Source: Pseudomonadota bacterium (GTDB lineage Bacteria > Pseudomonadota > Gammaproteobacteria > Steroidobacterales > Steroidobacteraceae). Taken from it: 64,000 bases of DNA. Each line of letters opens with the position of its first letter. The first letter of the stretch is position 1. Positions 26,470-43,363 of this stretch are shown one piece after another. The stretch covers positions 1-64,000 of the forward strand of contig JABBNZ010000007.1 in the NCBI GenBank assembly GCA_019352035.1, read 5' to 3'. Both the position numbers and the translations under genes were made by a program. The notes beneath the pieces are model-generated. The model was not told the DNA's origin and made no database searches. It was given only the letters and a program-made list of their open reading frames with translations.

Positions 26470-27279
26470 ATGAACCCGTTCGACCTGATTCAAGGATTCC
26501 TCGAGCGCGCCGAGGGACACCTGCCGTCCCCCGAGCGGCTGGCTGCGGAATTTCTCAAGTCGATCGAGCCGCTGGGATTTCGTAATTTTGCCTGCTGCTC
26601 GCACGTCGATCCGTTCCACCCTCCACGCGAGGCGGTCATGCTGCACAACTACCCGCAAGGTTGGGTGCGCACGTTCAGCGACGCGCGGCTCTACGAGATC
26701 GACCCCGTCTTGGAGCGCGCGCAATCGCACCTGTTGCCGTTCTTCTGGGACACGGCCCTTCGCCCCGAGTCGCTGACCGGGCCGCAAAGGACGCTCCTCG
26801 CCGACGCCGCCGGGTATGGTCTCACCCACGGATATACGATCCCGCTGCATCTGTCCTGGCTGCCGGGCACATTGCGGGCCTCCTGCTCGGTGATTCCGGA
26901 CGGCGAGCGTGTCGATTCGGAAAGCTACGTCGTGGTCGAGGTGCTCGCGATCTACCTGTATCTGTTCGCCTCGCGCATTCAGGCCCCATGGCTCACTCCG
27001 GCGCGCGTGCTTCTGACGCAGCGCGAGCGCGGGTGTCTGGCGCTCGTGGCGCAGGGCAAGGAGGATTGGAGCATTGGGCGCCTCATGGGGCTGGGTACGT
27101 CCACGGCCCATTACCATATCGAGCACCTGAAGCGGCGTTTGGGTGTGAGCACGCGGCCGCAGGCGGTCGCGCAGGCATTGATGACCGGTCAGCTCACCTT
27201 CGCCGAACTGGCCCGAAGAATCGGCGCCGAGGTTACGGACGCGGGTATCGATCCGGCGCCCCCAGACCTGCACCGTTAG
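26470..27279 (+). CDS. luxR: LuxR-type quorum-sensing regulator (autoinducer-binding plus HTH)
   Basis: A 269-aa acyl-homoserine-lactone-responsive regulator. The N-terminal autoinducer-binding domain shows NYPQGWVRTF, the conserved D-P in YEIDPVLERA and FFWD; the position four after the first conserved Trp is Phe instead of the usual Tyr. The C-terminal LuxR HTH reads LTQRERGCLALVAQGKEDWS followed by IGRLMGLGTSTAHYHIEHLK and RRLGVSTRPQAV. It is the first gene of a luxR-luxI-phyH run on the plus strand, with a dyad upstream that could mediate autoregulation. The name is for the family. Confidence 0.9.
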   Translation: MNPFDLIQGFLERAEGHLPSPERLAAEFLKSIEPLGFRNFACCSHVDPFHPPREAVMLHNYPQGWVRTFSDARLYEIDPVLERAQSHLLPFFWDTALRPESLTGPQRTLLADAAGYGLTHGYTIPLHLSWLPGTLRASCSVIPDGERVDSESYVVVEVLAIYLYLFASRIQAPWLTPARVLLTQRERGCLALVAQGKEDWSIGRLMGLGTSTAHYHIEHLKRRLGVSTRPQAVAQALMTGQLTFAELARRIGAEVTDAGIDPAPPDLHR

Positions 27280-27410
27280 CCCAAACATGCAATCTCCGTG
27301 CCGGCGACGCCGCCGGCGGCTTCCGCTCGCCTCCTCTATTTAGATAGTTGGCACCGGTGGGATTTTCCGGCATTTTTTTGCCATTGGGATCGGAAGCGGT
27401 GGAGGAACCC

Positions 27411-28091
27411 ATGATCTTCGTCGTTGATGCCGCGGCGCGCAGGCACTTCGCGGCGGACCTGGCGATCATGCATCGCCAGCGCAAGGCTGTGTTCGTCGAC
27501 TGCGCCGGCTGGAAGATCCCCGTAGTGGCCGGTCAGGAAGCCGACTGCTACGACCTGTTGCAGGACAGCGTATACCTGCTGGCCAAGGAACAGCCGCGCG
27601 GACCGGTGCTGGCCTCGGCGCGCCTGCTCACGACCACGGGGCCGCATCTGATGCAGGTCCTCTATGCACGAGCGGACCTGGCCGCTGTTCCCTCCGGCCC
27701 AAAGGTATGGGAAGCATCGCGATACTGCTCGGACCCGGGAATCGCGGGCCGCAGCAAGCGGCTGGGTCTCCTCTGGGAAGTCATCTGCGGAGTCATGGAG
27801 ACGGCCCTCGCGCACGGCGTCAATCAGGTGATCTTTGCGGCCAACCGGGCGCTGCTGCCCCTTGCCCTCCACTGCGGCTGGCAGGCGAGCATCGTCGGGC
27901 CGACCCAGAAGGACGGCGACGACGAGTTCACGGCCGTCGCCGCATCCATGACAGTGCAAGGCCTGCGCAATGTCCGTGAGCGCTACGGCATTGCGGCGCC
28001 GATCACCTTCGCGGTCGGTGCGCACCCAGAAAGCGGCAACACCCCGGCTCACCCGAACGTTCGGCCGCCACAGCATGCGCGCGCGCCATGA
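27411..28091 (+). CDS. luxI: Acyl-homoserine-lactone synthase (LuxI family)
   Basis: A 226-aa autoinducer synthase that would join an acyl chain to S-adenosylmethionine. The ATG at 27411 has GGAGGA four bases upstream. The conserved LuxI residues are present with canonical spacing: R24, F28 and W34 (HRQRKAVFVDCAGW), D45 and D48 (EADCYD), R71 (ASARLL), E101 and R104 (WEASRYC). LLTTTGPHLM is the usual substrate-pocket block. A C-terminal proline-rich tail of about 20 residues is extra. Its stop overlaps the phyH start by 4 bp. The acyl chain made cannot be read from sequence. Confidence 0.9.
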   Translation: MIFVVDAAARRHFAADLAIMHRQRKAVFVDCAGWKIPVVAGQEADCYDLLQDSVYLLAKEQPRGPVLASARLLTTTGPHLMQVLYARADLAAVPSGPKVWEASRYCSDPGIAGRSKRLGLLWEVICGVMETALAHGVNQVIFAANRALLPLALHCGWQASIVGPTQKDGDDEFTAVAASMTVQGLRNVRERYGIAAPITFAVGAHPESGNTPAHPNVRPPQHARAP

Positions 28092-28936
28092 CCTCCCCCG
28101 ACACCACCCCGGCCCTCGACCTCCTGCGCTCGAAGGGCTACGTGATCTTCGACCGGCTGCTCTCCGAGGAGCTGGTGGATCGAGTCTGCGCTGAGCTCGA
28201 GCCCTGGTTCAGGCAGACACCGCATTGCCAGGGAGACTTCTACGGCTGGGCTACGACCCGACTCGGCTCCGTGCTGCTCAAATCACCGAGTTCACACGGC
28301 CTCGTGCTCCATCCTCTGCTGCTGTCCCTGATGAACCAGGTGCTGGGCCCGCACTGCGACTGGTATCAGCTCAATCTCAGCCAGGCCGTCCGCCTGCACC
28401 CGGGGCAGCGCCAGCAAGTGCCCCACAGGGATGAGGAAATGTGGCACTGCCAGAAAAACGGCATCGAATACCTGGTCAACGTCATGTGGGCCCTGTCGGA
28501 GTTCACCGAGGAAAACGGCGCGACGCTCCTCTGGCCGCGCAGCCACTACCAGCGGCTCTCCCGCGAGCTCGACAGCGCGGGAGCCGCGATCGGGGCGATG
28601 CCGCGCGGCTCCGCCCTGGTCTACCTGGGCTCGGTCACCCACTGCGCAGGGGCCAACCGCAGTCCTCACCCCCGAACCGGCCTCATCTTCAGCTACTCGC
28701 TGGGGTGGCTGAAGCCTTACGAGAATCCGTTCCTCTCGTATCCGCCGCCCGTCGCGAAGGGATTCCCGCCGGCACTGCGGGATCTCATCGGCTATCGCAT
28801 CCATCGGCCGAATCTCGGCGGATATGAGGGGCAAGACCCTTCAGTGCTGTTTGAGACTTCATCACACACATTGCCCGCGATCGATGCCATCCCGGACTCA
28901 ATTGCACGAGAGCTGAAAGCATTCTACCAAGCGTAA
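28088..28936 (+). CDS. Phytanoyl-CoA dioxygenase (PhyH) family protein
   Basis: A 282-aa Fe(II)/2-oxoglutarate-dependent oxygenase. The iron triad is visible as H113 and D115 in VPHRDEEMW and H185 in GSVTHCAGANRS, with a downstream Arg (HPRTGLIFSYS) to hold 2-oxoglutarate. The jelly-roll core includes NVMWALSEFTEENGATLLWP, typical of PhyH. Translational coupling to luxI (ATGA) makes a role in the quorum circuit likely, for example hydroxylating the acyl-homoserine lactone, its acyl precursor or a co-regulated metabolite. The substrate is unknown. Confidence 0.85.
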   Translation: MTSPDTTPALDLLRSKGYVIFDRLLSEELVDRVCAELEPWFRQTPHCQGDFYGWATTRLGSVLLKSPSSHGLVLHPLLLSLMNQVLGPHCDWYQLNLSQAVRLHPGQRQQVPHRDEEMWHCQKNGIEYLVNVMWALSEFTEENGATLLWPRSHYQRLSRELDSAGAAIGAMPRGSALVYLGSVTHCAGANRSPHPRTGLIFSYSLGWLKPYENPFLSYPPPVAKGFPPALRDLIGYRIHRPNLGGYEGQDPSVLFETSSHTLPAIDAIPDSIARELKAFYQA

Positions 28937-29024
28937 TCACGAGTGGATTGCCCATTACCCTCTCCACCCAGACGAACCGGGACAGCCTACCACCCAAGAC
29001 CATCAGCACTTGACGGAACGTCTC

Positions 29025-30029
29025 ATGCCCAGGACTCAAAGCCACTCCCGTCAGAAATCCATGCCTTCCACGTCACTGCAGCCCAGTAGCCCGGTAACTC
29101 GGGGCGAACGGCGGCTCATCAATCCCTTTCGCTGCCGCGTATGGACGCAGCACTCCCGCCCGGAGGAACAGCTGACGGAAGCCGCCTGCAAGTCCTTAAG
29201 GGAGTCAATCGACAAGAATGGTCAGCATCAGCCGGCCCTAGGGCGGCCCATCAACGACGATCCCAGCTGCGACGTCGAGATCATTTGTGGCGCCCGCAGA
29301 CACTCCGCCGCTCTTGCCCTGCGGCAAGATCTCCTGATAGAGCTTAGGGACCTCAGCGACGCCGAGGCATACGTTGCAATGTACGAAGAGAACGCAGAAC
29401 GCAAAGATGACTGTCCGTATGTTCAAGGCCAGATTCTACGCCGGGCACTGCACTCCAGCGCATACTCCTCCCAAGAAGGTCTGGCCCGCGCATTCCGCCT
29501 CTCTCATTCCAAAGTACAACGGCTGCTCATGATTTCCCAGTTGCCCAGCATCATCATTAGTGCATTCCAGTCTCCAAACGACATTCGCGAAAGCTGGGGC
29601 GTGGCGCTGTACCAACTCTGGAAGGCAAGTGATCCCGAGCACGCACTAACCGCCCGCGCGCGGGCGATTGTGCACAGGCCAGAACGAATGCCGGCGCGGA
29701 ATGTGTATGCCGCCTTGACCACCGCCAACGCCGCCAAACCGTCGAACCATAGGCTCCATCGGAGTATCCCGGTTTACGGTCGCAATCACATCATTCTGTT
29801 TCGCGAACAAGAGCAGGTCGCACACTTCACCTTCACCGTCCCCAAAACGATGCTCACCCAACACCGGCGCGAAGCCTTGACTCAGGCAATGCTGAAGATC
29901 CTGGATATCGAAACGGCTCCACCCGCCAAAAACAGCAACCTGAGTGACGTCAACGCCCGTAGCATCCCAACACCTTCAGCCGACAATGACTTGCGCACTC
30001 CAGCGTCTGGACTCCAGCCACAACACTAA
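29025..30029 (+). CDS. ParB-like partition/nuclease-domain protein, no ParA partner
   Basis: A protein of about 334 aa. Residues about 25-115 resemble the ParB N-terminal domain: INPFRCRVW, SIDKNGQHQPALGRPI, EIICGARRHSAALALR (box II-like G-x-RR) and LSDAEAYVAMYEENAERKDD. A helix-turn-helix with SSQEGLARAFRLSHSKVQRL and LLMISQLPSIIISAF follows. The last 60 residues are polar and low-complexity. No parA, origin or plasmid gene accompanies it. It stands at the left end of the low-GC lasso island, tail to tail with the ABC exporter gene. It may be a DNA-binding regulator of the cluster or a relic of a mobile element. A TTG 15 bases upstream is an alternative start. Confidence 0.75.
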   Translation: MPRTQSHSRQKSMPSTSLQPSSPVTRGERRLINPFRCRVWTQHSRPEEQLTEAACKSLRESIDKNGQHQPALGRPINDDPSCDVEIICGARRHSAALALRQDLLIELRDLSDAEAYVAMYEENAERKDDCPYVQGQILRRALHSSAYSSQEGLARAFRLSHSKVQRLLMISQLPSIIISAFQSPNDIRESWGVALYQLWKASDPEHALTARARAIVHRPERMPARNVYAALTTANAAKPSNHRLHRSIPVYGRNHIILFREQEQVAHFTFTVPKTMLTQHRREALTQAMLKILDIETAPPAKNSNLSDVNARSIPTPSADNDLRTPASGLQPQH

Positions 30030-30220
30030 TAACCTTCCTGGGGGCAGCGTGTCCATACGCGCGCTCACAGCAACACAGTCCTTGTAATGTCGTCGCCCCA
30101 TGCGACCACTCGACCCGAGGCACGAAAGCGCCGCATCCTTCGCAAATCACCCATGCAATTTCCACTTTTCTGTCAAACGATCCCGTCGACGTTACCATAC
30201 ACCCGTACTCCAGGCCCACT

Positions 30221-31990
30221 TCACCCTATCACCCTCCTATTACCCTGCGCATTCCAAAGTTCTGCATATATCCCATTCCGCCTCAGCAACCCACCGTGCG
30301 TACCTCGCTCAGCAATATCGCCATTCTCGAGCACCACGATCTCATCGGCATACTCAACCGCCGAAAGGCGGTGAGCAATGACTATTGTCGTACTCGTCAG
30401 CGCTACCGCTCGAAGACTTCGCAATATTTCACCTTCTGTCCGACTGTCTAGCGAAGAAGTCGCCTCATCGAAAACATAAATCTTTGGCGATTTGAGCACC
30501 GCTCGCGCAATGGAGATGCGCTGCCGCTCGCCTCCCGAGAGTTTCATACCCCTCTCTCCCACAACCGTGTCATACCGGCTCGGAAGATTCATGATGACGT
30601 CATGCAGCTGAGCCACCCCGGCAGCCTCCTGAATCTGCTCCAACGTGGCCTCCGCACACCCAAGCGATATGTTGTATCGAACGGTCTCATCAAAAAGCAT
30701 CGTTTCTTGCGGAACAACCGCAATGACACGTCGCAATTCCCGGAGGCTTAGCAATTGAATTGGGATTCCATCGAGCAGAATCGCACCACTTTCCGGCTCC
30801 AGCAAACGCATCAAGAGCCGAACGATCGTCGATTTCCCCGATCCGCTCCGCCCCACGATGCCGAGAACTTTCCCACCAGCCACGCCGAAACTGACACTTC
30901 TCAGCACTTGGCGGTGGCAACCATATGAAAGACTTATTCCTTCAAATTCGACGGTACCCGGTCCCGAACCCAGGTGTTGCCCACTCTGGGACTTCTCCGT
31001 TGCCTCTCGAAACAGCCGTACGAGCCTGTCAAGCATGGCTACTCCAGAAGATAGTCCCTGGTTCGCATAGCCCATCATTTCAATTGGCCGCACAACCTGT
31101 AATGCATAGGTGTTCACCAAAACGAAGTCTCCAAGCGTCATGCGCCCCCGCCGCACTTCATCCGAAGCATAGAAAATAGTACCGCCCACGAAGGCGGCGA
31201 AGATGGCGGACGTCACGACCCCATTCAAGGCAGACCGCATGCAAAACCCCAGCGATTCAGATTCCGCATGACTCAGCGCACTCGAAACGCGACGTTGCAC
31301 CAGCGTCTCGGCACAAAAATACTTTACGGTCTCGTAGTTGAGCAACCCGTCTGTCATCACCGCGGCCGCGTCGATCCGCGCGGCCATCGCTCGGCGCGCC
31401 GACCTGTTCAGAGGCTGAACTGAGCACCCGAATGCAATGGAATAGGCCGCGACTGCGCCAAACAACAGAAACAGAAATCCCGGGGCTACAACACGTAGCA
31501 GTACAACAAGGACTGTCCCCAACTCGACCAATACCGGAATGTAGGTGAATACCAAATGGTGCAAGATACTGCGCAACCCCGCCAGGCCGCTATCAAGAGT
31601 CTCGGTTACCGCCCCAGTCTTCCGGTCAAGATGAAATCTCAGCGGCAAGTGCATAAGGTGTGCGAAGAGGCCCTCACTTAGGTTGCGAAGGATTCTCTGC
31701 CGCGCTCGCGCAAAGCTTAGCTCTCGGATCTCATTTATGGTCCTGGCGAGCCAAAGCGACCCCACATAGAACACCAGTAACAGCGACACGGAGACGGATT
31801 GCTTCGCTCGCCCGCCAATCAGTGTGTTCACAATGACGCGCAGCACCGCAGGACCGATCGCAGTCAGCATGGCCGCGGCGATCACGAGGACCAGGACATT
31901 TGCCAGCCTGCATCTCACGGAAGGCGTTGCTGCCTTCCACAGCATGCGCAGTATTTCGCGAAGGCCGACTGTCGAATGTGGCGGTTGCAT
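30221..31990 (-). CDS. ABC exporter (fused permease-ATPase) of the lasso peptide cluster
   Basis: About 589 aa from the ATG at 31990 (a longer start at 32053 adds 21 residues; neither has a good ribosome site). The N-terminal half is a six-helix ABC exporter domain (VLVLVIAAAMLTAIGPAVLR, YVGSLWLARTINEIRELSFA, FLFLLFGAVAAYSIAFG). The ATPase has Walker A GIVGRSGSGKST, signature LSGGERQRISIARAVL, Walker B KIYVFDEATSSLD and the switch His in IVIAHRLS. It belongs to the ATM1-like group, the same architecture as the McjD immunity exporters of lasso peptides. It is divergent from the precursor gene across a 321-bp region. Likely role: exporting the mature peptide and giving immunity. Confidence 0.87.
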   Translation of the reverse strand: MQPPHSTVGLREILRMLWKAATPSVRCRLANVLVLVIAAAMLTAIGPAVLRVIVNTLIGGRAKQSVSVSLLLVFYVGSLWLARTINEIRELSFARARQRILRNLSEGLFAHLMHLPLRFHLDRKTGAVTETLDSGLAGLRSILHHLVFTYIPVLVELGTVLVVLLRVVAPGFLFLLFGAVAAYSIAFGCSVQPLNRSARRAMAARIDAAAVMTDGLLNYETVKYFCAETLVQRRVSSALSHAESESLGFCMRSALNGVVTSAIFAAFVGGTIFYASDEVRRGRMTLGDFVLVNTYALQVVRPIEMMGYANQGLSSGVAMLDRLVRLFREATEKSQSGQHLGSGPGTVEFEGISLSYGCHRQVLRSVSFGVAGGKVLGIVGRSGSGKSTIVRLLMRLLEPESGAILLDGIPIQLLSLRELRRVIAVVPQETMLFDETVRYNISLGCAEATLEQIQEAAGVAQLHDVIMNLPSRYDTVVGERGMKLSGGERQRISIARAVLKSPKIYVFDEATSSLDSRTEGEILRSLRAVALTSTTIVIAHRLSAVEYADEIVVLENGDIAERGTHGGLLRRNGIYAELWNAQGNRRVIG

Positions 31991-32178
31991 AGCCTGCAGC
32001 ACAAAGGCCGAAGATTTGCCGTTCTCTCGAAAGGCTACGCATCCGATTTGCATCCGACAAGACAGTCTCGCTCATTCGTCATGGCGACCCAAGTTGGGCG
32101 ACCGCAACCCATTGACCCGGCTCTCCTTGTGACCACTCAGGTCGCGTTTAGCGCGCCTCCATGAGTCGCATTATCTTG

Positions 32179-32214
32179 AATGGGAGCCGAGACCTGCGCA
32201 TACGAACTCCCATT
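32179..32214. promoter_or_regulatory. Inverted repeat in the exporter/precursor promoter region
   Basis: AATGGGAG (32179-32186) and CTCCCATT (32207-32214) are perfect 8-bp arms separated by 20 bases, about 100 bp upstream of the lasso precursor start. It could be an operator or a leader-RNA hairpin. No convincing sigma-70 promoter was found; the neighbouring ECF sigma factors may recognise this region. Confidence 0.35.
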
Positions 32215-32311
32215 GACTAACGATGTTGTCGGCCGCAGGCTCACACTTGCCTTCGCGGAGAACGGCGCCGCTTCGCGCTCGGCGAGTGTCACATCAATTG
32301 AGGAGACGACC

Positions 32312-32410
32312 ATGATTGTTGAACTCGGATCTGTGAAATCGAAGACAATGGGCCTGACGGTCGTGACGACCGAGTCCAGTTCCGCGCAGCCCGGACCTCA
32401 GCAGCCCTGA
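32312..32410 (+). CDS. Lasso peptide precursor (A gene)
   Basis: A 32-codon gene encoding leader MIVELGSVKSKTM and core GLTVVTTESSSAQPGPQQP. The leader has the ELGSV motif and the Thr at position -2 that define proteobacterial lasso leaders. Core residue 1 is Gly and residue 8 is Glu, the only acidic residue of the core, so a Gly1-Glu8 macrolactam with an 11-residue tail is predicted. GAGGAG lies seven bases before the ATG and decides the start. The same frame is open to an ATG at 32180, but that has no ribosome site. The gene is followed by a hairpin and then the B and C genes on the same strand. The 13-residue leader is short for the family. Confidence 0.85.
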   Translation: MIVELGSVKSKTMGLTVVTTESSSAQPGPQQP

Positions 32411-32444
32411 TCAGGACCATTCCGCTCACTTAGGATGAGCTTTT

Positions 32445-32472
32445 GGGGCGTGCAGCATTGGCTGCACGCCCC
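32445..32472 (+). terminator. Hairpin between precursor and processing genes (attenuator)
   Basis: GGGGCGTGCAGC and GCTGCACGCCCC pair perfectly over 12 bp around the loop ATTG, 34 bp after the precursor stop and 29 bp before the B gene. ATCTCTCT follows instead of a pure T-run. Such a structure would terminate part of transcription, giving much more precursor mRNA than enzyme mRNA; similar stem-loops are described between A and B genes of other lasso clusters. Confidence 0.75.
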
Positions 32473-32501
32473 ATCTCTCTGAATGCGACAGGCAGGCACG
32501 T

Positions 32502-33218
32502 ATGACGCCCCGGTATCTGCTCAGCCAGCACTCCTACATCTGCGTCGATCGTCACTTTTGCGTGATCCTCGATGCCGAGTGCGATTCCTACATTGCCTTA
32601 CCGCGAATGACCATGGAGCACATGTCACCTTGCCTATCCGGCTGGCTTAGCCAAAGGGGATCGGGCCTCTCTGGGGCGCTCACGTCAGATCTCGACGAGA
32701 TCGCACGACATCTCCTGAGGAGGGGGATACTGACCACCTCAACGCGCCACGGCAAGCCGGTACGTCCGGCGATCATCCCGCGCGCTCATGAAAGCCTCGG
32801 AGAGTCCGATACGAAGCTTCCCTGGCGCTCAACCATGCGATTTTCAGCAGCAGCTGCACGATCGCTCATCTGGGCCAGCAGGCGCCTCTCGCACCACGCC
32901 CTTCTATCTACAATCCGGACGATTGTCTTGTACCGGGATCATGACCACCGCTTCCAAGCGCGACCAGACATATCCCGCATAAGTGCCCTAATTGCGGCAT
33001 TCAACTCCTGGCGGGGCTTCGCTTCCCGGCCAAATGCATGCCTCTACGACTCCCTAGCGGCTCTTCACTTCCTAACGCAGTACGAGATATTTCCATCGTT
33101 GATCTTTGGCGTAGTAGCCGAACCATTTCAGGCTCACTGCTGGCTCCAATACGATGGCCTTATACTGAACGATAGCCTTTCCCATGTGATCGACTACACA
33201 CCGATCATGCTCGTATAA
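32502..33218 (+). CDS. Lasso peptide B protein: RRE domain fused to transglutaminase-like leader protease
   Basis: A 238-aa maturation enzyme. The N-terminal 85 residues (YLLSQHSYICVDRHFCVILD, then a helical DLDEIARHLLRRGIL) resemble the PqqD-like RiPP recognition element that grips the leader. The C-terminal domain is a transglutaminase-like cysteine protease with a candidate triad C180 (RPNACLYDSLAALHFL), H212 (FQAHCWLQYDG) and D224 (LILNDS). It would cut between Met-1 and Gly1 of the precursor, freeing the amine for ring closure. The fused B form is usual in proteobacteria. It sits between the attenuator hairpin and the C gene, 13 bp before the latter. Confidence 0.87.
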   Translation: MTPRYLLSQHSYICVDRHFCVILDAECDSYIALPRMTMEHMSPCLSGWLSQRGSGLSGALTSDLDEIARHLLRRGILTTSTRHGKPVRPAIIPRAHESLGESDTKLPWRSTMRFSAAAARSLIWASRRLSHHALLSTIRTIVLYRDHDHRFQARPDISRISALIAAFNSWRGFASRPNACLYDSLAALHFLTQYEIFPSLIFGVVAEPFQAHCWLQYDGLILNDSLSHVIDYTPIMLV

Positions 33219-33231
33219 CTCTATCCCCGTC

Positions 33232-35106
33232 ATGTATCCGTTTATCGCACTCCTGTGGGACCCGACCGAAGCAGACGCCTCGGCCGCTGCCCAAAGACTG
33301 ACCGCAACCATTCGCGAAGCCCTTCTGAACTACCGACCAGCTCTCGTCGCCGATGGCTTCGCCGTTCTGACGGATTCCCCGGCCGGAAACTCCATGCGTC
33401 TCTATCAACTGCAGGAGCAAGCCGGCGTAGTGCTTGGCCGCTTGTTTCCCATGGACATGGATCATTGCCATGCCAATTGGTCGTGGTCGCCCTCCATCTC
33501 GGATACGGCCGAAATCGTACGGAGTCAGGGGCAATGGCTCATACGCAATATGTGGGGGAGCTATATCGCGCTGATACGGAATTCTCGCAGCCTTGAAAGC
33601 TTTGTCATTCGAGACTGCTCCGGAAAGCTCCCCTGCTATCGACTGAAGCATTCGCGCGTCGATGTGATTTTCTCCGACCCGGCCGATCTGCAAGCCATCG
33701 GCCTTATTTCAAAGTCGCTCAATTGGAGGTATATACAGGCCTTTCTCTACGCCAGCCAGGTGCAGATTCGAGACACAGCACTCCAAAGTGTGACGGAGCT
33801 GCTGGCTGGCGATTGCTTTCATAGATCATCCGCGACCGTCTACTCGCAACACTCCGCCTGGAGTCCTCACTCAGTTTTCGCGCAGCCCTGCATTCGTGAC
33901 TTCGATTACGCCGTCGATCAGGTACGCTCGGTCACGCTCGGCTGCATCGGAGCATGGGCATCCACCTACGACAGAATTCTTCACAGCCTCTCGGGCGGGC
34001 TCGATTCAACAGTCGTCCTGGCTTGCTTGAGCCGCAGCCAACGACCACCTCACGTTGTTTGTATAAATACATTCGGCGCCAGGAGTGCGGAAGACGAACG
34101 CTCGTTTGCACGACTGGCCGCCTCGTCCGCGAACGTAGAACTCCAGGAGATTCCGATTATCTCGGAACGGCTCGTGATAGATGATGCTCTCACCGACCTC
34201 CCTTTAACCGCCAAGCCGTCAATCCCGGGCACAATTGGCACGCTGGGCGTCGCGGCACTCAATGAACTAGGTCAACGCTTCGCCGCTGAGAGCATTTGGA
34301 CTGGCCAGGGCGGCGATCACCTGTTTCTGCAGACACTACTGCCTCTTGCCCCGCTCGACTATGTTCACCTGCACGGATACCGCCCGGCGGTGTTGAAGTC
34401 GCTACGGGATGCCGCCCGGCTTTCCGGACTGGGCTACTGGCGCGCCCTGTCACTTCTTTGGAATGGACCCTTCGAGCACATAGCGCATACCGTCGACACA
34501 AGTCATGCTGCCAGGCACCCGTTTCTTGCGCCGGACCTAAGATCATGTCCCCCTGGAGAATATCTTGCACACCCATGGTGGAAGGCTCCTTCGCAATCCC
34601 TACCACCCGGCCGACGCATGCAGGTCACTGCGCTTTCGGAGGTGTTGAATCGTCATCGTCCCTTGCCCCGACTGCAAACGACCTATGAGCACCACCCTCT
34701 ACTCTCTCAACCGCTGTTGGAGTTGTGCCTAAGAATTCCGTCTTACTTGCACCTCCACGGTGGGATAGACCGAGCTGTTGAGAGATCGGCGTTCGCAAAT
34801 CTCATTCCGGACCGAATAGCTTCCCGACGTCAGAAAGGGCAAAGCACCTTTTCAATATTGGATACGCTTCACCGCAGCGACGGATACATTCGTGATCTGC
34901 TACTCGGGGGCGTTCTCAGCCACGAGGGCATTATCGATCGAGCGGCACTCGCCCCCTACTTGGAAGGGCACCGGCCACTCGAACTCCAGATCCTCTTTCC
35001 ATTCCTTTCCTGTATAGCGGCTGAGCTATGGATCCGTAATTCCCTCAATCATCTATCAGCCATTCGGCCACCGGCCGCCCTCTCCGGCCACCGTCCACGG
35101 TCCTAG
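33232..35106 (+). CDS. Lasso peptide macrolactam synthetase (C protein, asparagine-synthetase-like)
   Basis: A 624-aa ATP-dependent cyclase that would adenylate Glu8 of the core and join it to the Gly1 amine. The N-terminal domain resembles class II glutamine amidotransferases but begins MYPFIALLWD without the catalytic Cys2, as expected for lasso cyclases, which use no glutamine. The synthetase domain carries the pyrophosphate loop LHSLSGGLDSTVVLACL near residue 255, INTFGARSAEDERSFARLAA and WTGQGGDHLF. It directly follows the B gene and its last 51 bp overlap the 3' end of the convergent isopeptidase gene. Codon use is less GC-rich than in the flanking chromosome. Confidence 0.9.
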   Translation: MYPFIALLWDPTEADASAAAQRLTATIREALLNYRPALVADGFAVLTDSPAGNSMRLYQLQEQAGVVLGRLFPMDMDHCHANWSWSPSISDTAEIVRSQGQWLIRNMWGSYIALIRNSRSLESFVIRDCSGKLPCYRLKHSRVDVIFSDPADLQAIGLISKSLNWRYIQAFLYASQVQIRDTALQSVTELLAGDCFHRSSATVYSQHSAWSPHSVFAQPCIRDFDYAVDQVRSVTLGCIGAWASTYDRILHSLSGGLDSTVVLACLSRSQRPPHVVCINTFGARSAEDERSFARLAASSANVELQEIPIISERLVIDDALTDLPLTAKPSIPGTIGTLGVAALNELGQRFAAESIWTGQGGDHLFLQTLLPLAPLDYVHLHGYRPAVLKSLRDAARLSGLGYWRALSLLWNGPFEHIAHTVDTSHAARHPFLAPDLRSCPPGEYLAHPWWKAPSQSLPPGRRMQVTALSEVLNRHRPLPRLQTTYEHHPLLSQPLLELCLRIPSYLHLHGGIDRAVERSAFANLIPDRIASRRQKGQSTFSILDTLHRSDGYIRDLLLGGVLSHEGIIDRAALAPYLEGHRPLELQILFPFLSCIAAELWIRNSLNHLSAIRPPAALSGHRPRS

Positions 35107-37401
35107 ACCGAATAGACAACGTCGACATTGCTTCCCGTATAACATTCTCATCTTATCCCAACGACGATACTCTTTTCCCTTCGAAGGATCCGCACTGCGC
35201 TTGCCAAGGAGCCAATAGTTGAACCAGTCCAACGTTCGCTGCATGGACGCCGCCGCTGCGCGCGGATCCCAGAACAGGTGCGATTCATTTGGATAAAATA
35301 CGAGATCATAGGGAATGCCCGCTTCTCGCAAGAATACGAGCCTTGCAAGCGCGGTAGTCGCACTCCCCGCCGCCGGTTGTTCGAGAAGCGGGCCGGCAAA
35401 TGACGACGCACGAAAATCGGGCGAGAACTTTCGATAGGCTCTGATCACATCCGGATTGGAGCTGTAGGCGGACCCCCCGTAAAGCGACCGATATCCGTAT
35501 TGGGCAGACACAATCCCATCCTCCCAGTACTCATCGGCGGTTGGACCTGACGCTCCGTCGTCGATGGATGCCACTCTAAAGAGCTTTGACTGGGTCATGG
35601 TGAACAGGCTTAGTGCAGCACCATCACTGTATCCAGCAATCCCAGTCTTTGCCGGATCGACCACCCCTGCCCGCACGAGACTCACCACAACGGCCTCCAT
35701 GCTTGCCACCGGGCCCTTGATGACTCTCATTTCCCTCGTCCTCACAGCCGTTTCCGTGGTACGAACATGCCGAAATTGCCACGGAGTGCCCTGGGCCAGA
35801 CTGGTCCATGGGGTATTTGCCTCAACTACCAAATATCCGCCTTCGGCCAGTGCCTGAACAGGAATCTCCCCCTGTATCATGCCTTGATCAGCGAATGTAT
35901 TGATGGCGCCGTCGACATGGGTAACGACGATCAGCGGATACTTCCGTTCCGCGGAATAGTGCCGAGGATAGATGACGTATCCGTCGCTCTTCTGTCCATA
36001 CTTGTTTGTCCAGTGTTCAAGCTTCACGTTCAAAGGAGTGATCCGCGCATACCTGGCATTTGGTCGCGCGACTGTCCTCATCGCCCCCGTTCTTCCATTG
36101 AGCACGACGAGCTCCGGCGCAAGCGTCTGACTCTGCCTTACGCAAACACCGATTCGCAGATCGTCTGTAAAATCACAGGGATTCAAGTTGTCCTTCACCT
36201 TGGCCCATGCTCGGCCTGCCCGAGACTGAGGCAAAGAAACCAAGCCGATGTGATGATGGTAAAGCGCGCTCAGGATTTGCCTTCCTGTCCCGGAGTCAAT
36301 CCAGGTCCCACCCGGAAAGCTTTTCATCATTCCAACCATTGAATATGGCACACCCCCGAGATCCTTCGTCTTGGTACCAGTATCAGAATATTCCCACAGA
36401 TGGTCAGCGCCGCGAAATTGCTTTACTTCGTAGTAGCGACCACTGTCTGCAGCTGGAACAGCCATAACCCACCAGGGCGAGTTCAGCGGCAGGGCTCGCT
36501 TGACTCCGGTCTTGGCATCCACGTACCACCGCGATATGGCGATGCGTCCAGATGGCGCTAGCGTATCCGTGGTGTACACAATGTGTCTGGAGTCGCGCAT
36601 CCATAATGCCGAAGCCAAATCTCTTCGCAGATTGGCCTCTTCAAGAAACTGATCCGCTGGCACAAACGCAACCACATGACTCCCTTTCCCGTTTGCGCCC
36701 TGCACGTGCAGTTCAAATCCCACAAACTCCCCCGCGGGACGCCTTAGCGTAGAAAACGCCACATCCTTTTGATCATCGTATTCCACCCCGTCTTCGTCAA
36801 ATGCCCGAACCTGGACGGGCGTGCGCAGTTTGAGCGTCGAATACCACAGCTCCGATCCATCGGGAGACCACTGATATGACCACACCCCGGCTCGACGCGG
36901 TCCCTGAACAGTGGGTATCACACCACCATACGCACCGACCATCGCCGTGCTCGACGACACGGCGACTGGGAACACTGTGCCGCTATCGCCGACGTCATAC
37001 AGCTGCACACCATTGCCTATGTCCGCCAGAATTGTCCAGCGCTTGGCACCCGACCGTTGCGTCACATCCTTGATATATCTGGCTTCAAGCAAGCAGTTCG
37101 GGTGACCGGCGCCACTAAGTTCAACCTCGCATAATTCATACTTGACGCGGTCTGCCGCAACGGAAGGCTCTCGGAGCACATATGCAGCTTCTCCTTCTGA
37201 TGAGGACACTGCAACAGATTGGATCTGCCGGACATCGACAATGTCCGCTATCGTCCAAGGTTTTCCAGTTGCAGATACGGCTCCGGCGAATCCGATAATG
37301 CCAATCGCGACGCTACGCACGCACGCTTTCGCGTATACGCTCACCTGTCCATACCCAGTCACCGGCACCAGCGCACGCGCCGGGCTCACTGAAACATCCA
37401 C
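35056..37401 (-). CDS. Lasso peptide isopeptidase (S9 prolyl-oligopeptidase family, Atxe2-like)
   Basis: A 781-aa exported protease with a hydrophobic signal (VRSVAIGIIGFAGAVSATG near residue 30), a beta-propeller and a C-terminal hydrolase domain. The nucleophile is Ser592 in TGIAGYSDGAALS and the histidine is His708 in FYPNESHLFWDPR. Family members open the macrolactam of the host's own lasso peptide in the periplasm. Where others read PLLMQLADDE-like with the acid residue, this one reads PLLEQPAAGSATTALAR, so the expected catalytic Asp appears absent (see findings). Its start overlaps the TonB receptor end by 16 bp, so both are in one transcript. Role assigned from cluster context plus family. 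Confidence 0.85.
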   Translation of the reverse strand: MDVSVSPARALVPVTGYGQVSVYAKACVRSVAIGIIGFAGAVSATGKPWTIADIVDVRQIQSVAVSSSEGEAAYVLREPSVAADRVKYELCEVELSGAGHPNCLLEARYIKDVTQRSGAKRWTILADIGNGVQLYDVGDSGTVFPVAVSSSTAMVGAYGGVIPTVQGPRRAGVWSYQWSPDGSELWYSTLKLRTPVQVRAFDEDGVEYDDQKDVAFSTLRRPAGEFVGFELHVQGANGKGSHVVAFVPADQFLEEANLRRDLASALWMRDSRHIVYTTDTLAPSGRIAISRWYVDAKTGVKRALPLNSPWWVMAVPAADSGRYYEVKQFRGADHLWEYSDTGTKTKDLGGVPYSMVGMMKSFPGGTWIDSGTGRQILSALYHHHIGLVSLPQSRAGRAWAKVKDNLNPCDFTDDLRIGVCVRQSQTLAPELVVLNGRTGAMRTVARPNARYARITPLNVKLEHWTNKYGQKSDGYVIYPRHYSAERKYPLIVVTHVDGAINTFADQGMIQGEIPVQALAEGGYLVVEANTPWTSLAQGTPWQFRHVRTTETAVRTREMRVIKGPVASMEAVVVSLVRAGVVDPAKTGIAGYSDGAALSLFTMTQSKLFRVASIDDGASGPTADEYWEDGIVSAQYGYRSLYGGSAYSSNPDVIRAYRKFSPDFRASSFAGPLLEQPAAGSATTALARLVFLREAGIPYDLVFYPNESHLFWDPRAAAASMQRTLDWFNYWLLGKRSADPSKGKEYRRWDKMRMLYGKQCRRCLFGLGPWTVAGEGGRWPNG

Positions 37402-40061
37402 GAGACCCGCAATCTGACTTCCCGCCCGAATACATTCGCGTTTAGAGGATCGTAATGAACACCCGGGACAAACTGATCAAACTGCACATACGGGGGCGCA
37501 CGATTGAAGACGTTCTCCACTGAGATGCCAACCTGAAGGCCACGAAGCTCTCTCGTCTGCGTCGGCTCAAACCCTACGGAAACATCCATCGTGGTCCACG
37601 AAGCCACGCGAGGCGTAGTCGGCTGGTAGGTATTCGCTTCAGATCCCACATAGTTCGCAAACCCACTTACCGTCCATGGCCCTGTCACCCACGAAACACC
37701 TCCGCGGGCGCTGATCTTTGGTGGCTCAAAGACTTTTCCGCTGATCTCGACTTCCGGTGCGCCCACAACTAACTTCTGGCGAAAGTCGAGAAAGGCAGCG
37801 TTCAAAAATGGCTCTACCTCGCCAAACCGGGTGCGCTCCCCGTACTTAAGTTCAACGGTTGCTCCAGACACATCCTGCGACGCGACATTCACATACCTAA
37901 GATTCACGACCGCAGGTACATTTGCTGGATCGATTGGCGCACCCACCAAGTTGACAACGTAGCTCGCCGAATCGATCAAGCTCTGAACATACTGGGCAGA
38001 AGGCGAACGCGTGACGAATGGCGCATTCAGCGGATCGGTAAGGGCGGTAAATGGATTCGCAAGCTGCCCTATACGATGATCGTAGACGATGTGCAAATAC
38101 GTCACGGACCCACTCAGCCCCTGGACCGCCCCCGAACGATAATCTATGCCGGCTGTCCACGTATCGGCGGTTTCCGGCTTCAGTTCATTATTGCCGCCCG
38201 TAGTCTCCACAATATTGGAGGCTCCGGCTGCCGATAAGGCATCGGGAAGCCGGTAATAGAGAATCCCCTGCTGATTGTGCATTTCGAACAGTGACGGAGC
38301 CCGGAACGCTCTCCCCCATGTTCCTCGGAGAGTGACGACCCTAAAGGGTTTGTAAATGAGCCCCAGTTTAGGCACCGACACGTTGCCAAAATCCGAGTAC
38401 CGCTCATAGCGTCCGCTCATATTGAGCATCAACGACCGGCGCCACGCCATAGCAGACGATCTGATCAGTGGAATGGCTAATTCTCCGTACATGTATTCGA
38501 CCGTTCGACGCGCGCCGTGCAAATCCGAAACGCCTCCATCCGCGGCGTTGTACGCTTCGAGTCGGTATCCGGCGCCTATCGCCCCGCGGGAGATTCCGGA
38601 AGGCAGAGTCAGCACAGGACCGTTTGCGGTCACTTCAATCGACCTCGCTTGCCCTTCATAAGACAGCGCGGGCACTGGCCCGCCCGGCACCAACGCCGAA
38701 GTCGAAAGACTGCGTTGCTCGGAGTAATCTCCGACTGTCGACAGCCCCCACGAAAACGGCAGAGGAGCATTCAATCCTGCCGATGCTGCGTATTGGTGGA
38801 CTGCCACCTCATTGCGCTCGCTTGGGTAGAGCGGCCCGTCTGAAAACGCGTCGCGAACGATCCTGTACGTGTAAAGTCCGCGCGCGAATGCATCCACGTT
38901 GCCGAAGTTTTGGTGCCCGCTTACGAAGAACGAGTTCCGCGACATCCCAGGCGACGCGGTGGTCAAAGGCCCAGCAGAATTTGTCGCGTCTCGCTGAGAG
39001 GCGAGAATTGGGTTCTGCTTGTCGAATTCGTAATCGAATATGACGCCGCCGGCGCGCCAAGTCTTGCCGAACATTTGATTGAATTCTCGCTCCGTCCCGC
39101 CACCGTCGGAAGTTCCCCCACCTAATAGTGTCGTTTTGGCGCCGTTGAAATCACGACGAAGAACGATGTTGACCACGCCTGCGACCGCGTCTGATCCATA
39201 TATCGCCGATGCGCCTCCGGTCAGCACGTCAATATGGTCGATGATAGGCAGCGGGATCAGGGAAATGTCGACGGAACCGAAAGGACCGTCTGTCGCAAGC
39301 CTCTGTCCGTCGACCAACGTCAGCGTCGAATCGGCGCCGAGGCCGAATAAATTCGGAGCGGGGCTGCCGGACGGAGACTGATTGGCGTTTGGTGTGGACC
39401 CAATGACGGTCTGTGGATTTGCGTTTCCAAAATTCTCCGGAAGACTCCTAATCAAGTCTCCGATAGTGCTATATCCGGACCGCTCAATGTCCTGGGATGT
39501 TATCTTTATTACCGGAGACGACGGGGGTTCCCCGGCAATATGGGTGCCGGTCACAGTGACTTCTCGTAATTCCACCGCCGTGGGCTCCGCGGCTCCGCCT
39601 GTTTGCATGTGTCTTCGAGGCTCCCCTTGCTTGGACTGCTGCGCCTCAATCGGTGGATCCCCTGACGACGCGTTCGCCTCAGAAGGAGAGTCACCACCGC
39701 TGCCGGATGTCGATTTGATCTGCACGGTGTCCCCGTGCTGCACGAAGTTCAGAGCGGTCCCTTTCAAGAGCTTGTCCAGGGCTTCTCTGACTGTATAGCT
39801 TCCTTTTAGATTGCTCGCGTGAGATCTACCGGCCAGCCTCCCTGCGACATCGAGCTGAACGCGCGCCTGCACCGCAAGTTGGACTAGCGCCGCTCGCAGC
39901 GTTTTCGCGTTAATGTCCAGGTTGACCACCTTATCCAGATCACCAGCAACGGCAGCGCGGCCGATCAAGATGGCCACCGCCCCGAGCAGTGCCACCCTGA
40001 GATCGAAGCGAGACGCTACGGACCTCCCACTAATGGGACTGCGACCGCGCACTAATTTCAT
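37386..40061 (-). CDS. TonB-dependent receptor with STN signalling domain
   Basis: An 891-aa outer-membrane transducer. After the signal peptide, residues about 45-120 form an STN domain (VNLDINAKTLRAALVQLAVQ, LKGSYTVREALDKLLKGTAL), the part that contacts FecR. Then come a TonB-box-like ELREVTVTGTHIAGE, a plug (VDGQRLATDGPFGSVDISLI, GGASAIYGSDAVAGVVNIVL) and a large barrel ending GREVRLRVSWMFQ. GAAGGGG lies eight bases before the ATG. Located upstream of the isopeptidase gene and downstream of sigma/FecR, it likely takes up the lasso peptide (or its cargo) and reports its presence across the envelope. Confidence 0.9.
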   Translation of the reverse strand: MKLVRGRSPISGRSVASRFDLRVALLGAVAILIGRAAVAGDLDKVVNLDINAKTLRAALVQLAVQARVQLDVAGRLAGRSHASNLKGSYTVREALDKLLKGTALNFVQHGDTVQIKSTSGSGGDSPSEANASSGDPPIEAQQSKQGEPRRHMQTGGAAEPTAVELREVTVTGTHIAGEPPSSPVIKITSQDIERSGYSTIGDLIRSLPENFGNANPQTVIGSTPNANQSPSGSPAPNLFGLGADSTLTLVDGQRLATDGPFGSVDISLIPLPIIDHIDVLTGGASAIYGSDAVAGVVNIVLRRDFNGAKTTLLGGGTSDGGGTEREFNQMFGKTWRAGGVIFDYEFDKQNPILASQRDATNSAGPLTTASPGMSRNSFFVSGHQNFGNVDAFARGLYTYRIVRDAFSDGPLYPSERNEVAVHQYAASAGLNAPLPFSWGLSTVGDYSEQRSLSTSALVPGGPVPALSYEGQARSIEVTANGPVLTLPSGISRGAIGAGYRLEAYNAADGGVSDLHGARRTVEYMYGELAIPLIRSSAMAWRRSLMLNMSGRYERYSDFGNVSVPKLGLIYKPFRVVTLRGTWGRAFRAPSLFEMHNQQGILYYRLPDALSAAGASNIVETTGGNNELKPETADTWTAGIDYRSGAVQGLSGSVTYLHIVYDHRIGQLANPFTALTDPLNAPFVTRSPSAQYVQSLIDSASYVVNLVGAPIDPANVPAVVNLRYVNVASQDVSGATVELKYGERTRFGEVEPFLNAAFLDFRQKLVVGAPEVEISGKVFEPPKISARGGVSWVTGPWTVSGFANYVGSEANTYQPTTPRVASWTTMDVSVGFEPTQTRELRGLQVGISVENVFNRAPPYVQFDQFVPGVHYDPLNANVFGREVRLRVSWMFQ

Positions 40062-40094
40062 GATACGTACCCCTTCTCTTTTAGCTGTCGATTG

Positions 40095-40123
40095 CGCGCA
40101 AACACCTTGGTTATTTTTGCGCG
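40095..40123. promoter_or_regulatory. Inverted repeat in the TonB receptor promoter region
   Basis: CGCGCAAA (40095-40102) and TTTGCGCG (40116-40123) are perfect 8-bp arms with a 13-base spacer, within the 244-bp region between the FecR stop and the receptor start. It may be an operator or a hairpin separating receptor expression from that of sigma/FecR. I could not identify the ECF promoter elements with confidence. Confidence 0.4.
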
Positions 40124-40305: not shown

Positions 40306-41472
40306 TTAGGAACAGCTGCTTTGTTGTGGAAGACCGGCTGCTTGATTTGAGCGGCGCATACGAATACGCACGTCGCCGCCTCCTTCGCGCACGGTTACCG
40401 GCAAAATGCACTGCAAACTGTGCAGCCAATCTTGAGTCTCGTTCGTGAATACAACTCCACTTATTCGAAGTGATCCGGCCGATGAGCTCACAAAGATGTG
40501 CTTCGAAGAGTAGCGATTGACGGTTTCGACCACGTACCTGAGCGGCTGATCGTCAAATATTAGGCTCCCGCGAGTCCATGCAGTCGCAGTACGGATGTCC
40601 GTATGCTTCAGGCGGTCCAATGCACCGTTCTGATCAAACGTAAGTTGCTCGCCGCGAACTACACGAATTGGCACTGGACCCAACCGAAGAGCGGACGCCG
40701 GGAGGAGGTCGCGTGCGGTCCACCAAGGCAGCTGCTCAGCGACTTCGACCGAGCCCTGCGTGACCGTCACAACGACTCGATCGGCCTCCCGCGTCACCAG
40801 AAACGCGGTTCCGAGATCCTTGATGCTCCCTCGACCAGCAGAGACCACAAAGGGCCAGCGTGGGCTGTCTGCGACCTTGAACCACGCCTGCCCTTCGATG
40901 AGGTTCACCGAGCGACGGTGTGCAGTGAAGATCACCGACACCTTTGTGTGTCCGCCGAGAATGATGCTTGTGCCGTCGCGCAGCTGAATGTCCTTTGTCC
41001 CGCCAACCGGTGTTTTATAGATTTCGAGGCCGTGCGGCCCCTGATCCGAATGAAACCGCATCGGCCGGAGGACAAAAATCATCGCTACCGCGACGACCGC
41101 GACCGCGGCCGCGGCCGCGCCCGCGCGGCGCCACCGCCGCCAGTACGCCTTGAGTGAGTGCGGAGTTGCTCCGTCCTTCCGGGCCCGAACTGCGCGCCAC
41201 TCGGCGATAGGCATGGAGAGATCATATTGATCTCTCCTTAGATCTGGTCTCCTGGGCCGGACTCGCATCCGATATTGATTGCGGTCCGCGATAAGCCGGC
41301 ACATATCGTCGAACACCTGCCGGTTCGCCGCATCGGCATACCAGTCCTGCCACTTGCGGCCCACCGCGATCGTGAGTTCACTTTCGTCCGCTTCGCGTAA
41401 GGTGGTGTACCAGCCGAGCGCTTCGGTCCACCGCTCCATGCCCGTAGCGCCTTCTGCCTCACCCTGGCTCAT
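40306..41472 (-). CDS. FecR-family anti-sigma/sigma-regulator protein
   Basis: A 388-aa inner-membrane regulator. The N-terminal cytoplasmic part (ALGWYTTLREADESELTIAV, KWQDWYADAANRQVFDDM) is the FecR N-domain that binds the sigma factor. A single membrane segment AAAAVAVVAVAMIFVL near residue 125 is followed by the periplasmic FecR domain (YKTPVGGTKDIQLRDGTSII, SVIFTAHRRSVNLIEGQAWF, FLVTREADRVVVTVTQGSVE). A C-terminal STN-like segment (LRYVVETVNRYSSKHIFVSS) would meet the receptor. It overlaps the sigma gene by 4 bp, ensuring stoichiometric production. Confidence 0.88.
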   Translation of the reverse strand: MSQGEAEGATGMERWTEALGWYTTLREADESELTIAVGRKWQDWYADAANRQVFDDMCRLIADRNQYRMRVRPRRPDLRRDQYDLSMPIAEWRAVRARKDGATPHSLKAYWRRWRRAGAAAAAVAVVAVAMIFVLRPMRFHSDQGPHGLEIYKTPVGGTKDIQLRDGTSIILGGHTKVSVIFTAHRRSVNLIEGQAWFKVADSPRWPFVVSAGRGSIKDLGTAFLVTREADRVVVTVTQGSVEVAEQLPWWTARDLLPASALRLGPVPIRVVRGEQLTFDQNGALDRLKHTDIRTATAWTRGSLIFDDQPLRYVVETVNRYSSKHIFVSSSAGSLRISGVVFTNETQDWLHSLQCILPVTVREGGGDVRIRMRRSNQAAGLPQQSSCS

Positions 41473-42080
41473 TGCAGCATTCCGTTCGCATTGGCGGCAT
41501 CAAGACACGTCTGCAGGTAGTCCAAGGCCCGTGCCACATGCTTCTTCGCCATTCGACCGCTGATCCGCATTTCCCGGCCGACTTGGTCGAAAGTCTTTCC
41601 CTGCAGTACATGGAGGACGAATGCCTCGAAGCACCTCGGCGGCAGGTCATCGATTGCCCTCTCCACGATTCCCAACCGCTCCCTTGCCTCCACGATCTCC
41701 TCGGCAGAGAATTCCTGCTTCTCGAGCTCCGGCAGCGCAGCGCGGGTAAAGCGGTCATGCAGCGCTTGATGTCGCCGCCGGTCAATCGCCAAGTTCACGG
41801 CGACCCGCCAGAGGTACCCGGCCAAGACACTGATCGTCCCCGGGCGTTCCAATGCCAGCATCTTTGCGTAAGCTTCCTGCACGATCTCTTTCGCATCTTC
41901 GACCGATCCGGTTCGCACTGCCACGAAGCGTACTAGGGCCGCGTGGTGATCCCGGGAAATCTCGGCGAGCGCTTGCGAATGAGCTGGATTCGGAGCCGGA
42001 CTGCGTGGTCCGGCATCGGGCTCATTGTCAATTGCGGGTATAGCCTTGCGCCGGGTTGGGCCGCCGTCGCCAGCGCTCAC
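41469..42080 (-). CDS. ECF RNA polymerase sigma factor, FecI-like
   Basis: A 203-aa ECF sigma factor. Region 2 reads LVRFVAVRTGSVEDAKEIVQ, then EAYAKMLALERPGTI and LAGYLWRVAVNLAIDRRRHQ. Region 4 reads VERAIDDLPPRCFEAFVLHV and LQGKTFDQVGREMRISGRMA, then KKHVARALDYL, the FecI-type arrangement. It is the first gene of the sigma-FecR-(gap)-TonB receptor-isopeptidase series on the minus strand and should activate the receptor/isopeptidase promoter when the receptor is occupied. The first 35 residues are variable and the start could lie further in. Confidence 0.87.
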   Translation of the reverse strand: MSAGDGGPTRRKAIPAIDNEPDAGPRSPAPNPAHSQALAEISRDHHAALVRFVAVRTGSVEDAKEIVQEAYAKMLALERPGTISVLAGYLWRVAVNLAIDRRRHQALHDRFTRAALPELEKQEFSAEEIVEARERLGIVERAIDDLPPRCFEAFVLHVLQGKTFDQVGREMRISGRMAKKHVARALDYLQTCLDAANANGMLQ

Positions 42081-43286: not shown

Positions 43287-43363
43287 CGTGTGCCTCAGGA
43301 CGCGCCCGAGGCGGCGCAAACTGCTCTCGACAACGGCCTCGCGAAGCGCGAGGATATCGCGCA

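Follow-up and report, generated by a model that had tools for sequence, protein, structure and literature searches.

The 64,000-nucleotide stretch analysed here (the window; contig JABBNZ010000007.1 of assembly GCA_019352035.1, from a bacterium of the Steroidobacteraceae) carries a lasso peptide locus next to a set of quorum-sensing genes. It is probably a working class II lasso locus of the proteobacterial isopeptidase type, which lies beside a quorum module, is probably controlled by it, and would take its own product up again. This reading is carried by the gene content, the domain matches, a predicted RRE fold in the B protein, a family of short leaders and a recurrent linkage between quorum and lasso genes, all of which were observed directly. 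As a lasso cluster the locus is ordinary, and its interest is raised by its surroundings, namely the short leaders and the quorum partner. Neither minimal natural leaders nor a recurrent quorum partner was found described for lasso clusters in the open literature searched.

Lasso biosynthetic genes and predicted product

The lasso genes A, B and C were re-located as open reading frames (ORFs) on the plus strand, and the positions given for all three by a sequence-only reading of the same DNA were correct. The features are as follows.

32300..32305, plus strand: ribosome-binding site GAGGAG of the precursor (GGAG lies 6–7 bases before the ATG in the family)
32312-32410, plus strand: gene A, precursor of 32 residues, MIVELGSVKSKTM followed by GLTVVTTESSSAQPGPQQP (ORF list)
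32312..32350, plus strand: leader MIVELGSVKSKTM, 13 residues, Thr at −2 (ORF translation, precursor scan)
32351..32410, plus strand: core GLTVVTTESSSAQPGPQQP and stop, predicted ring Gly1–Glu8 (ORF translation, precursor scan)
32444..32473, plus strand: stem-loop of 13 bp between A and B (fold z-score −3.76)
32502..33218, plus strand: B protein, RRE fused to a cysteine protease (NF033537, predicted RRE fold)
33232..35106, plus strand: C protein, asparagine-synthetase-like macrolactam synthetase (PF00733, SGGLDS)

The 32-residue precursor has the leader and core that had been claimed for it, with the Thr(−2), the small first core residue (Gly1) and the acid within core positions 7–9 (Glu8) that mark a lasso precursor. 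As Glu8 is the sole acid of the core, a Gly1–Glu8 ring with an 11-residue tail is predicted, which supports the earlier reading on this point. The calculated neutral mass of the core minus water is 1864.917. By eye, the core resembles that of the relative L037 in genome G050 (GFIPALVEAGQPGQQVG), which has equal Gly1–Glu8 spacing and a QPG-QQ tail, and it is also like the GLKADAIESNGEVGVQHP and GIDTQQTESLGVPGYQF types, which have Val or Tyr at the position of the window's Pro. The core had been called unfamiliar, and it did remain so: its sequence had no occurrence in a text search of the PMC literature, and tblastn of the precursor against the plasmid collection gave no match with E up to 10, though such a search has little power for a query of 32 residues. 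Moreover, homologous leaders with identical A-B-C gene order occur in relatives, and thus the A-B-C find is more than a chance arrangement.

The description of B as a fused RRE and protease was borne out by the B2 profile match and by the modelled RRE fold. C180 and H212 of B were invariant in all 18 aligned sequences. The AlphaFold2 model, made from the alignment of 18 sequences, had a pLDDT of 87.9 and showed N-terminal strands and helices. Its best matches in the PDB were the lasso RRE proteins TbiB1 5v1v and 5v1u (E 0.065 and 0.078; probability 0.99; TM by target 0.59), with none of the PDB matches reaching E 0.001, and neither profile library reported an RRE in B. An N-terminal RRE in B is therefore best described as supported by the model. 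The SGGLDS motif of C was intact in alignment A1, which comprised 11 C proteins and excluded weaker loci as well as L003 and L004, the latter having a stop within its match. The expectation that both proteins would match lasso profile models held in part. B passed NF033537 (lasso B2; 58.3 bits, cut-off 33) and PF13471 (58, cut-off 26), and C passed PF00733 (73.9 bits, cut-off 21), but C stayed below the cut-offs of the NCBIfam cyclase models NF033561 (70.8 against 300) and NF033535 (47.4 against 525), which counts against a working locus. In the spacer between A and B, none of 200 shuffles folded as well as the stem-loop, and a stem of at least 11 pairs was predicted in 18 of 20 short-leader loci (window counted), its sequence differing from locus to locus.

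Quorum module and its linkage to lasso loci

Upstream of the lasso genes, four genes of the plus strand form the quorum module.

26470..27279, plus strand: LuxR-type regulator (PF03472 86.3 bits, PF00196 43.5 bits, both over cut-off)
27348..28091, plus strand: LuxI-type acyl-homoserine-lactone (AHL) synthase (PF00765 68 bits, cut-off 24)
28088..28936, plus strand: PhyH-type dioxygenase, 4-base overlap with luxI (PF05721 92.7 bits, cut-off 22)
29010..30029, plus strand: ParB-like protein (TIGR00180 87 bits, cut-off 58.45; tblastn matches in relatives)

The AHL synthase adjoins an autoinducer-binding helix-turn-helix regulator, as in a LuxI/LuxR pair. An assignment of 27348-28091 to ParA was ruled out by the Pfam match to LuxI. 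The ParB-like gene occupies the place where five sphingomonad plasmids carry GntR. Its product may be a regulator, not a partition protein.

Four relatives (G050, G011, G056 and G043) have the run LuxR-LuxI-PhyH-ParB and, after it, the exporter and lasso B and C. The exporter is opposite in strand to LuxI in the window and G050, and on the same strand in G011, G056 and G043. In G004, G007 and G038 the module run hits the contig end soon after the exporter, and in G012 within ParB; G038 also has no LuxR, its contig having its other end at that side. The arrangement in G084 was LuxR-LuxI-exporter-B-C, with no matches to PhyH or ParB. One contig of G036 carried LuxR-LuxI and a partial ParB with no lasso gene, and that of G035 breaks at LuxI.

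The linkage was quantified in an order sample of 296 genomes and in a relatives set of 148 genomes, which overlap and in both of which the source genome is counted. In the order sample, LuxI was over cut-off in 15 genomes and lasso B2 in 37, and all 15 LuxI genomes lie within the 37 (hypergeometric 1.5e-15, which assumes independent genomes). In 11 of the 15, LuxI stood within 13 kb of lasso B on the same contig (G000, G056, G050, G084, G272, G289, G149, G185, G194, G219 and G291); G038, where the contig ends near the exporter, is not among them. In the relatives set, LuxI passed in 12 genomes, six of which have it on the contig of C and no more than 13 kb away. A broader genome collection, which takes in members of the source order, was scanned for C with the profile of alignment A1; 80 of 103 matches were kept, giving 78 lasso loci, several of them close relatives or near-identical. 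LuxI was found in 23 of these 78 loci, and in 21 of the 59 whose sequence extends 5.5 kb or more upstream of C. All 23 passed PF00765, and in 22 of them LuxI was 2.6–5.2 kb upstream of C, with one downstream.

The plasmid collection held 26 records with a C homologue. Among the 30 of 61 PhyH plasmid records listed (for LuxI, 60 of 224 were listed), eight held a C homologue, with PhyH within 12 kb of C in seven. Six of these seven, sphingomonad plasmids chosen for that closeness, all had LuxI and PhyH beside the lasso genes; LuxR was annotated in five of the six, and PhyH was followed by GntR in five and by MarR in one. In one linked plasmid, LuxR-LuxI-PhyH-GntR runs directly into the precursor gene.

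Several observations weigh against the reading of a lasso locus under quorum control. The hypergeometric value overstates independence, as it was computed on genomes that share ancestry and include several near-identical loci. LuxI and lasso B were 31 kb apart in G319 and on separate contigs in G188 and G036, and 55 of the 78 lasso loci, some of them short, gave no LuxI. No LuxI was annotated in the stretches of four lasso plasmids taken without PhyH selection, in three of which GntR directly precedes the precursor gene. Between the exporter and the precursor of the window, neither a lux-box-like dyad (at least 8 of 9 pairs) nor a sigma-70 promoter-like site was found, and two G+C-rich dyads stand before luxI. 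Terminator prediction, an Rfam scan and a search for upstream repeats gave nothing informative at the locus. Moreover, according to the accessible text of PMC6963729, loss of scmR raises the capistruin genes in Burkholderia, and AHLs raise scmR and may lower capistruin in stationary phase. For capistruin this would be indirect control of the opposite sign, exerted from a distant gene through the repressor ScmR, whereas in the window the AHL synthase stands at the cluster itself. In the accessible parts of PMC6963729, PMC8776678, PMC4235733 and PMC7042699, all of them open-access literature, no luxI beside lasso genes is described.

Base composition, mobility and exchangeable cassettes

The G+C content falls from about 0.68 to 0.56–0.62 across positions 28001-44000 of the window, as in a horizontally acquired island, which the sequence composition resembles. 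A tRNA search of the window found none. The step is not uniform: LuxR-LuxI-PhyH has 0.64–0.66, the genes from ParB through TonB have 0.56–0.58, and the flanking IlvD-like gene has 0.68. Given this difference, the quorum and lasso genes need not have arrived as one piece.

A rival reading is that the quorum genes are mere fellow travellers, in which case LuxRI-PhyH and lasso clusters would be linked by shared plasmid or island mobility and neither would control the other. All six annotated records that show the linkage are plasmids, the low G+C content of the lasso part differs from that of the IlvD-like gene, and the SYK-6 plasmid has LuxR-LuxI-PhyH next to conjugation genes and no lasso gene within the 18.8 kb analysed, which also weighs against quorum control of lasso genes as the general role of the module. 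However, the linkage recurs in distant groups with different gene arrangements, the position of LuxI upstream of C was kept in 22 of 23 genome-collection loci, and no genome of the order sample had LuxI over cut-off without lasso B2 over cut-off. In addition, LuxR-LuxI-PhyH is unlike the lasso genes in G+C content, yet both stay together. Shared mobility as the sole explanation was thus considered rather unlikely, and quorum control of the lasso genes was kept as the preferred reading.

Comparison with four close loci (G050, G011, G056 and G043; tblastn against the window) showed an uneven conservation, with identities of 73–77% for PhyH (72–77% in a separate comparison), 54–62% for the exporter and 27–37% for C. 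The predicted cores of these loci, GFIPALVEAGQPGQQVG, NAKISFTPEPVSPQQYLPL, GVKLVGSPEPIFQQAQAL and SGKIGPLAEPVFPYQSRAL, are unrelated. These identities, in place of a tree, suggest that A-B-C may have been replaced beside a kept module. One tentative and rather doubtful extension is that a quorum-gated, self-recycling lasso peptide could serve as a second, strain-specific signal atop the AHL. The conserved LuxR-LuxI-PhyH-ParB-exporter module would then be combined with swappable A-B-C "passwords", each read by a TonB-FecR-sigma system of its own and removed by the isopeptidase, and the leaders of 12–13 residues would be a minimal RRE-binding form.

Role of PhyH

In PhyH, H113, D115, H185 and R196, which we take to be the residues binding iron and 2-oxoglutarate, were invariant in all 11 aligned sequences. 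Since the PhyH profile was built on stop-to-stop frames overlapping luxI, its scores are inflated, and PhyH in lasso loci was counted by tblastn instead. PhyH neighboured LuxI in all seven genome-collection lasso loci that have PhyH, which had been fetched for C and not for LuxI, and 16 of the 23 lasso loci with LuxI gave no PhyH match. Loci L112–L122 were picked for holding LuxI and are therefore no test of PhyH following LuxI (L037 and L116 are one place). In G319, LuxI-PhyH occurs with no lasso B closer than 31 kb.

PhyH is most likely a part of the quorum module, with the acyl chain of the signal as a possible substrate, and not an enzyme that tailors the peptide. If PhyH acted on the variable peptide, the two should vary together, and a quorum role is favoured for this reason by the high identity of PhyH in the four close loci with unrelated cores. 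If PhyH instead hydroxylated the lasso peptide, the product would have the mass of the core minus water plus 15.995. The presumed active site is intact, the gene is near the lasso cluster, and for an actinobacterial lasso peptide a 2-oxoglutarate hydroxylase, CanE, is known. Nevertheless, tailoring is unlikely in view of the seven PhyH genes all next to LuxI, the LuxI loci with no PhyH and the LuxI-PhyH pair beside conjugation genes. In the accessible texts of PMC3704786 and PMC4288048, phyH adjoining luxI was already noted in Novosphingobium and other sphingomonads, and the word "lasso" is absent from them.

Export, uptake and fate of the product

The sequence-only reading had called the lasso system complete. 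This was correct but understated, as genes for transport, uptake, linearisation and probable regulation flank A-B-C.

30221..32053, minus strand: ABC exporter, probable lasso D protein (PF00664 and PF00005 over cut-off)
35056..37401, minus strand: AtxE2-like lasso isopeptidase, convergent with C (NF033523, 5jrk and 5txc similarity)
37386..40061, minus strand: TonB-dependent receptor with a possible STN signalling domain (PF00593 and PF07715 over cut-off)
40306..41472, minus strand: FecR-type transmembrane signal relay (PF04773 69.1 bits)
41469..42080, minus strand: ECF sigma factor (PF04542 and PF08281 over cut-off)
42516-43286, plus strand: second sigma-70-type factor, divergent from the ECF sigma gene

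Wherever a relative's locus yielded a full-length exporter homologue, it was 41–62% identical. The isopeptidase matched 5jrk (E 4e-64) and AtxE2 (5txc; E 1.9e-26) in the PDB. Its GYSDG and ESH align with GYSRG and ETH of 5jrk in the Ser and His regions; we take the Ser to be the nucleophile and the His to have a catalytic role, while the alignment did not place the acidic residue. The STN domain of the receptor (PF07660) reached 25.1 bits against a cut-off of 28.4. Relatives also have blocks of sigma, FecR, TonB and isopeptidase genes, as do annotated Sphingopyxis and Caulobacter plasmids, and a Novosphingobium plasmid stretch has a similar block without FecR and sigma.

In the proposed model, LuxI would make an AHL, and LuxR with this signal would control luxI-phyH-parB. 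LuxR would also control the lasso operon, either directly or through the ParB-like protein, and most simply by activation. The RRE of B would bind the minimal 13-residue leader, the protease would cleave after Met(−1), and C would activate Glu8 and close the Gly1–Glu8 ring around the tail. The ABC exporter would then secrete a product of 1864.92 Da, and the TonB receptor would re-import it and signal by way of FecR and the ECF sigma factor. Inside the cell, the isopeptidase would open the ring. Of these steps, we infer ring closure, threading, re-import, and the control by LuxR together with its sign.

In the case of the product itself, the ring acid is unambiguous, but threading, which a sequence does not reveal, is a prediction, and the tail has no bulky residue. 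Two points here speak against a functional lasso peptide. The tail, SSSAQPGPQQP, is free of aromatic residues and of Arg, Lys, His, Ile and Leu, and thus of an aromatic or other bulky plug residue, and the isopeptidase scored 189.6 bits with NF033523, under the curated cut-off of 400, for which reason it is called AtxE2-like only. The tail might accordingly not pass through the ring, giving a branched-cyclic product, or its threading might be weak and heat-labile; by eye, a Tyr or Phe stands close to the place of this tail's Pro-Gln in relatives such as GIDTQQTESLGVPGYQF and GTPGSALEQGVIVGFDPR. This outcome appears improbable, as the core of L037 likewise has no bulky tail residue and a gene of isopeptidase type points to a lasso as substrate. 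The 8-residue ring of benenodin-1 is plugged by Gln. A threaded product is therefore preferred.

Short leaders and the start site

By sequence, the 13-residue leader of the window, on whose shortness the sequence-only reading made no remark, is a member of a family of short leaders. The precursor scan used a regular expression demanding a ribosome-binding-site word, and some of the 78 loci yielded no candidate. Together with the window and four further loci, 70 distinct candidates were obtained. The commonest leader length was 27 (19 of 70), and leaders of at most 13 residues were found in 20 of 70, one of them (L096) through a misassigned start; L096 (leader 12) and L097 (leader 22) are one and the same precursor. 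For L039 and L040 the leader has 11 residues, or 12 when counted from the first of two adjacent ATGs.

As two upstream start codons exist in the window frame, the start in the window rests on the family. Of the 20 precursors checked, all but L011 (19 of 20) have GGAG 6–7 bases upstream of the corresponding ATG, and eight of the 20 had no in-frame ATG, GTG or TTG between the upstream stop and this ATG, which excludes a longer leader in those eight. That the true precursor begins further upstream, with 44 extra sense codons and a leader of ordinary length, is very improbable for these two reasons, despite the open upstream frame with its two possible start codons (ATG at 32180) and the conservation before the ATG in L039 and L040 (57 of 60 bases, against 85 of 93 in the gene), a pair which, being as conserved upstream as in the gene, does not mark the start. 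The 76-codon ORF was thus rejected as precursor on the family position of the ribosome-binding site and the missing upstream starts in relatives.

According to the accessible text of PMC11420955, MccJ25 was still detectable when the McjA leader was cut by up to 28 residues, recognition resting mostly on the last eight, and short leaders are therefore biochemically reasonable. An open-literature text search for lasso peptides with short leaders returned matches that, judged by title, were not about lasso leaders.

Other short-leader precursors differ in their cores. The precursor of L112 in G011, MITLGKVTTETQ followed by NAKISFTPEPVSPQQYLPL, has a 12-residue leader and a core that would start with Asn, as in metanodin, and the core of L115 would start with Ser. 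L047, L048 and L050, from metagenome-assembled genomes of Woeseiaceae, have two Cys in the core (e.g., GCGNSGLEFWVIPSRRDCM), and such cores could give a disulfide-bearing lasso peptide.

Comparison with known systems

The locus is like the isopeptidase-type proteobacterial lasso clusters (the "benenodin family", with the Atxe2 isopeptidase) in having A-B-C on one strand and isopeptidase-TonB-FecR-sigma convergent on the other. Unlike those clusters, it has a leader of 13 residues and an exporter upstream on the opposite strand, and where benenodin-family plasmids carry GntR upstream, the window carries LuxR-LuxI-PhyH-ParB. It is also like metanodin biosynthetic gene cluster 89, which the accessible text of PMC12670498 describes with ABC and an isopeptidase gene and assigns to a Steroidobacteraceae relative. 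Metanodin is a different peptide, which starts with Asn like the predicted core of L112, and the words luxI, luxR, quorum and homoserine are absent from the text of that paper. Compared with the sphingomonad LuxR-LuxI-PhyH module, in which phyH adjoins luxI in the same way (accessible parts of PMC3704786 and PMC4288048), the module of the window differs in standing beside a lasso cluster and in being followed by a ParB-like gene.

The purpose of lasso peptides that are seemingly re-imported and cut open by their makers is still unsettled. A cargo-carrier role has been proposed (accessible part of PMC11006600), and the control of lasso genes was called poorly understood in a review (PMC6963729, likewise in its accessible part). 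The quorum neighbourhood gives a hint of the timing and purpose of peptide production, and with the recurrent link to an AHL synthase, density control by LuxR becomes a simple testable idea. Supply of AHL or LuxR is thus suggested for waking silent lasso clusters. Moreover, natural leaders this short lend themselves to enzyme studies and may partly explain why gene callers miss such precursors.

Further lasso loci

The source genome, a 4.5-Mb assembly, has three C homologues, two of them outside the window locus. These belong to two further lasso B-C loci, L127 (G000:C166) and L128 (G000:C156); homologues of isopeptidase, TonB, FecR and sigma occur in L127 as well. The precursor of L127 was not found in its stretch, which begins within B, and in L128 no ORF stood out as a fitting precursor. 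In L041, L053, L055 and L044, two lasso systems stand back to back on opposite strands, each with its own B and C and with an exporter gene between them.

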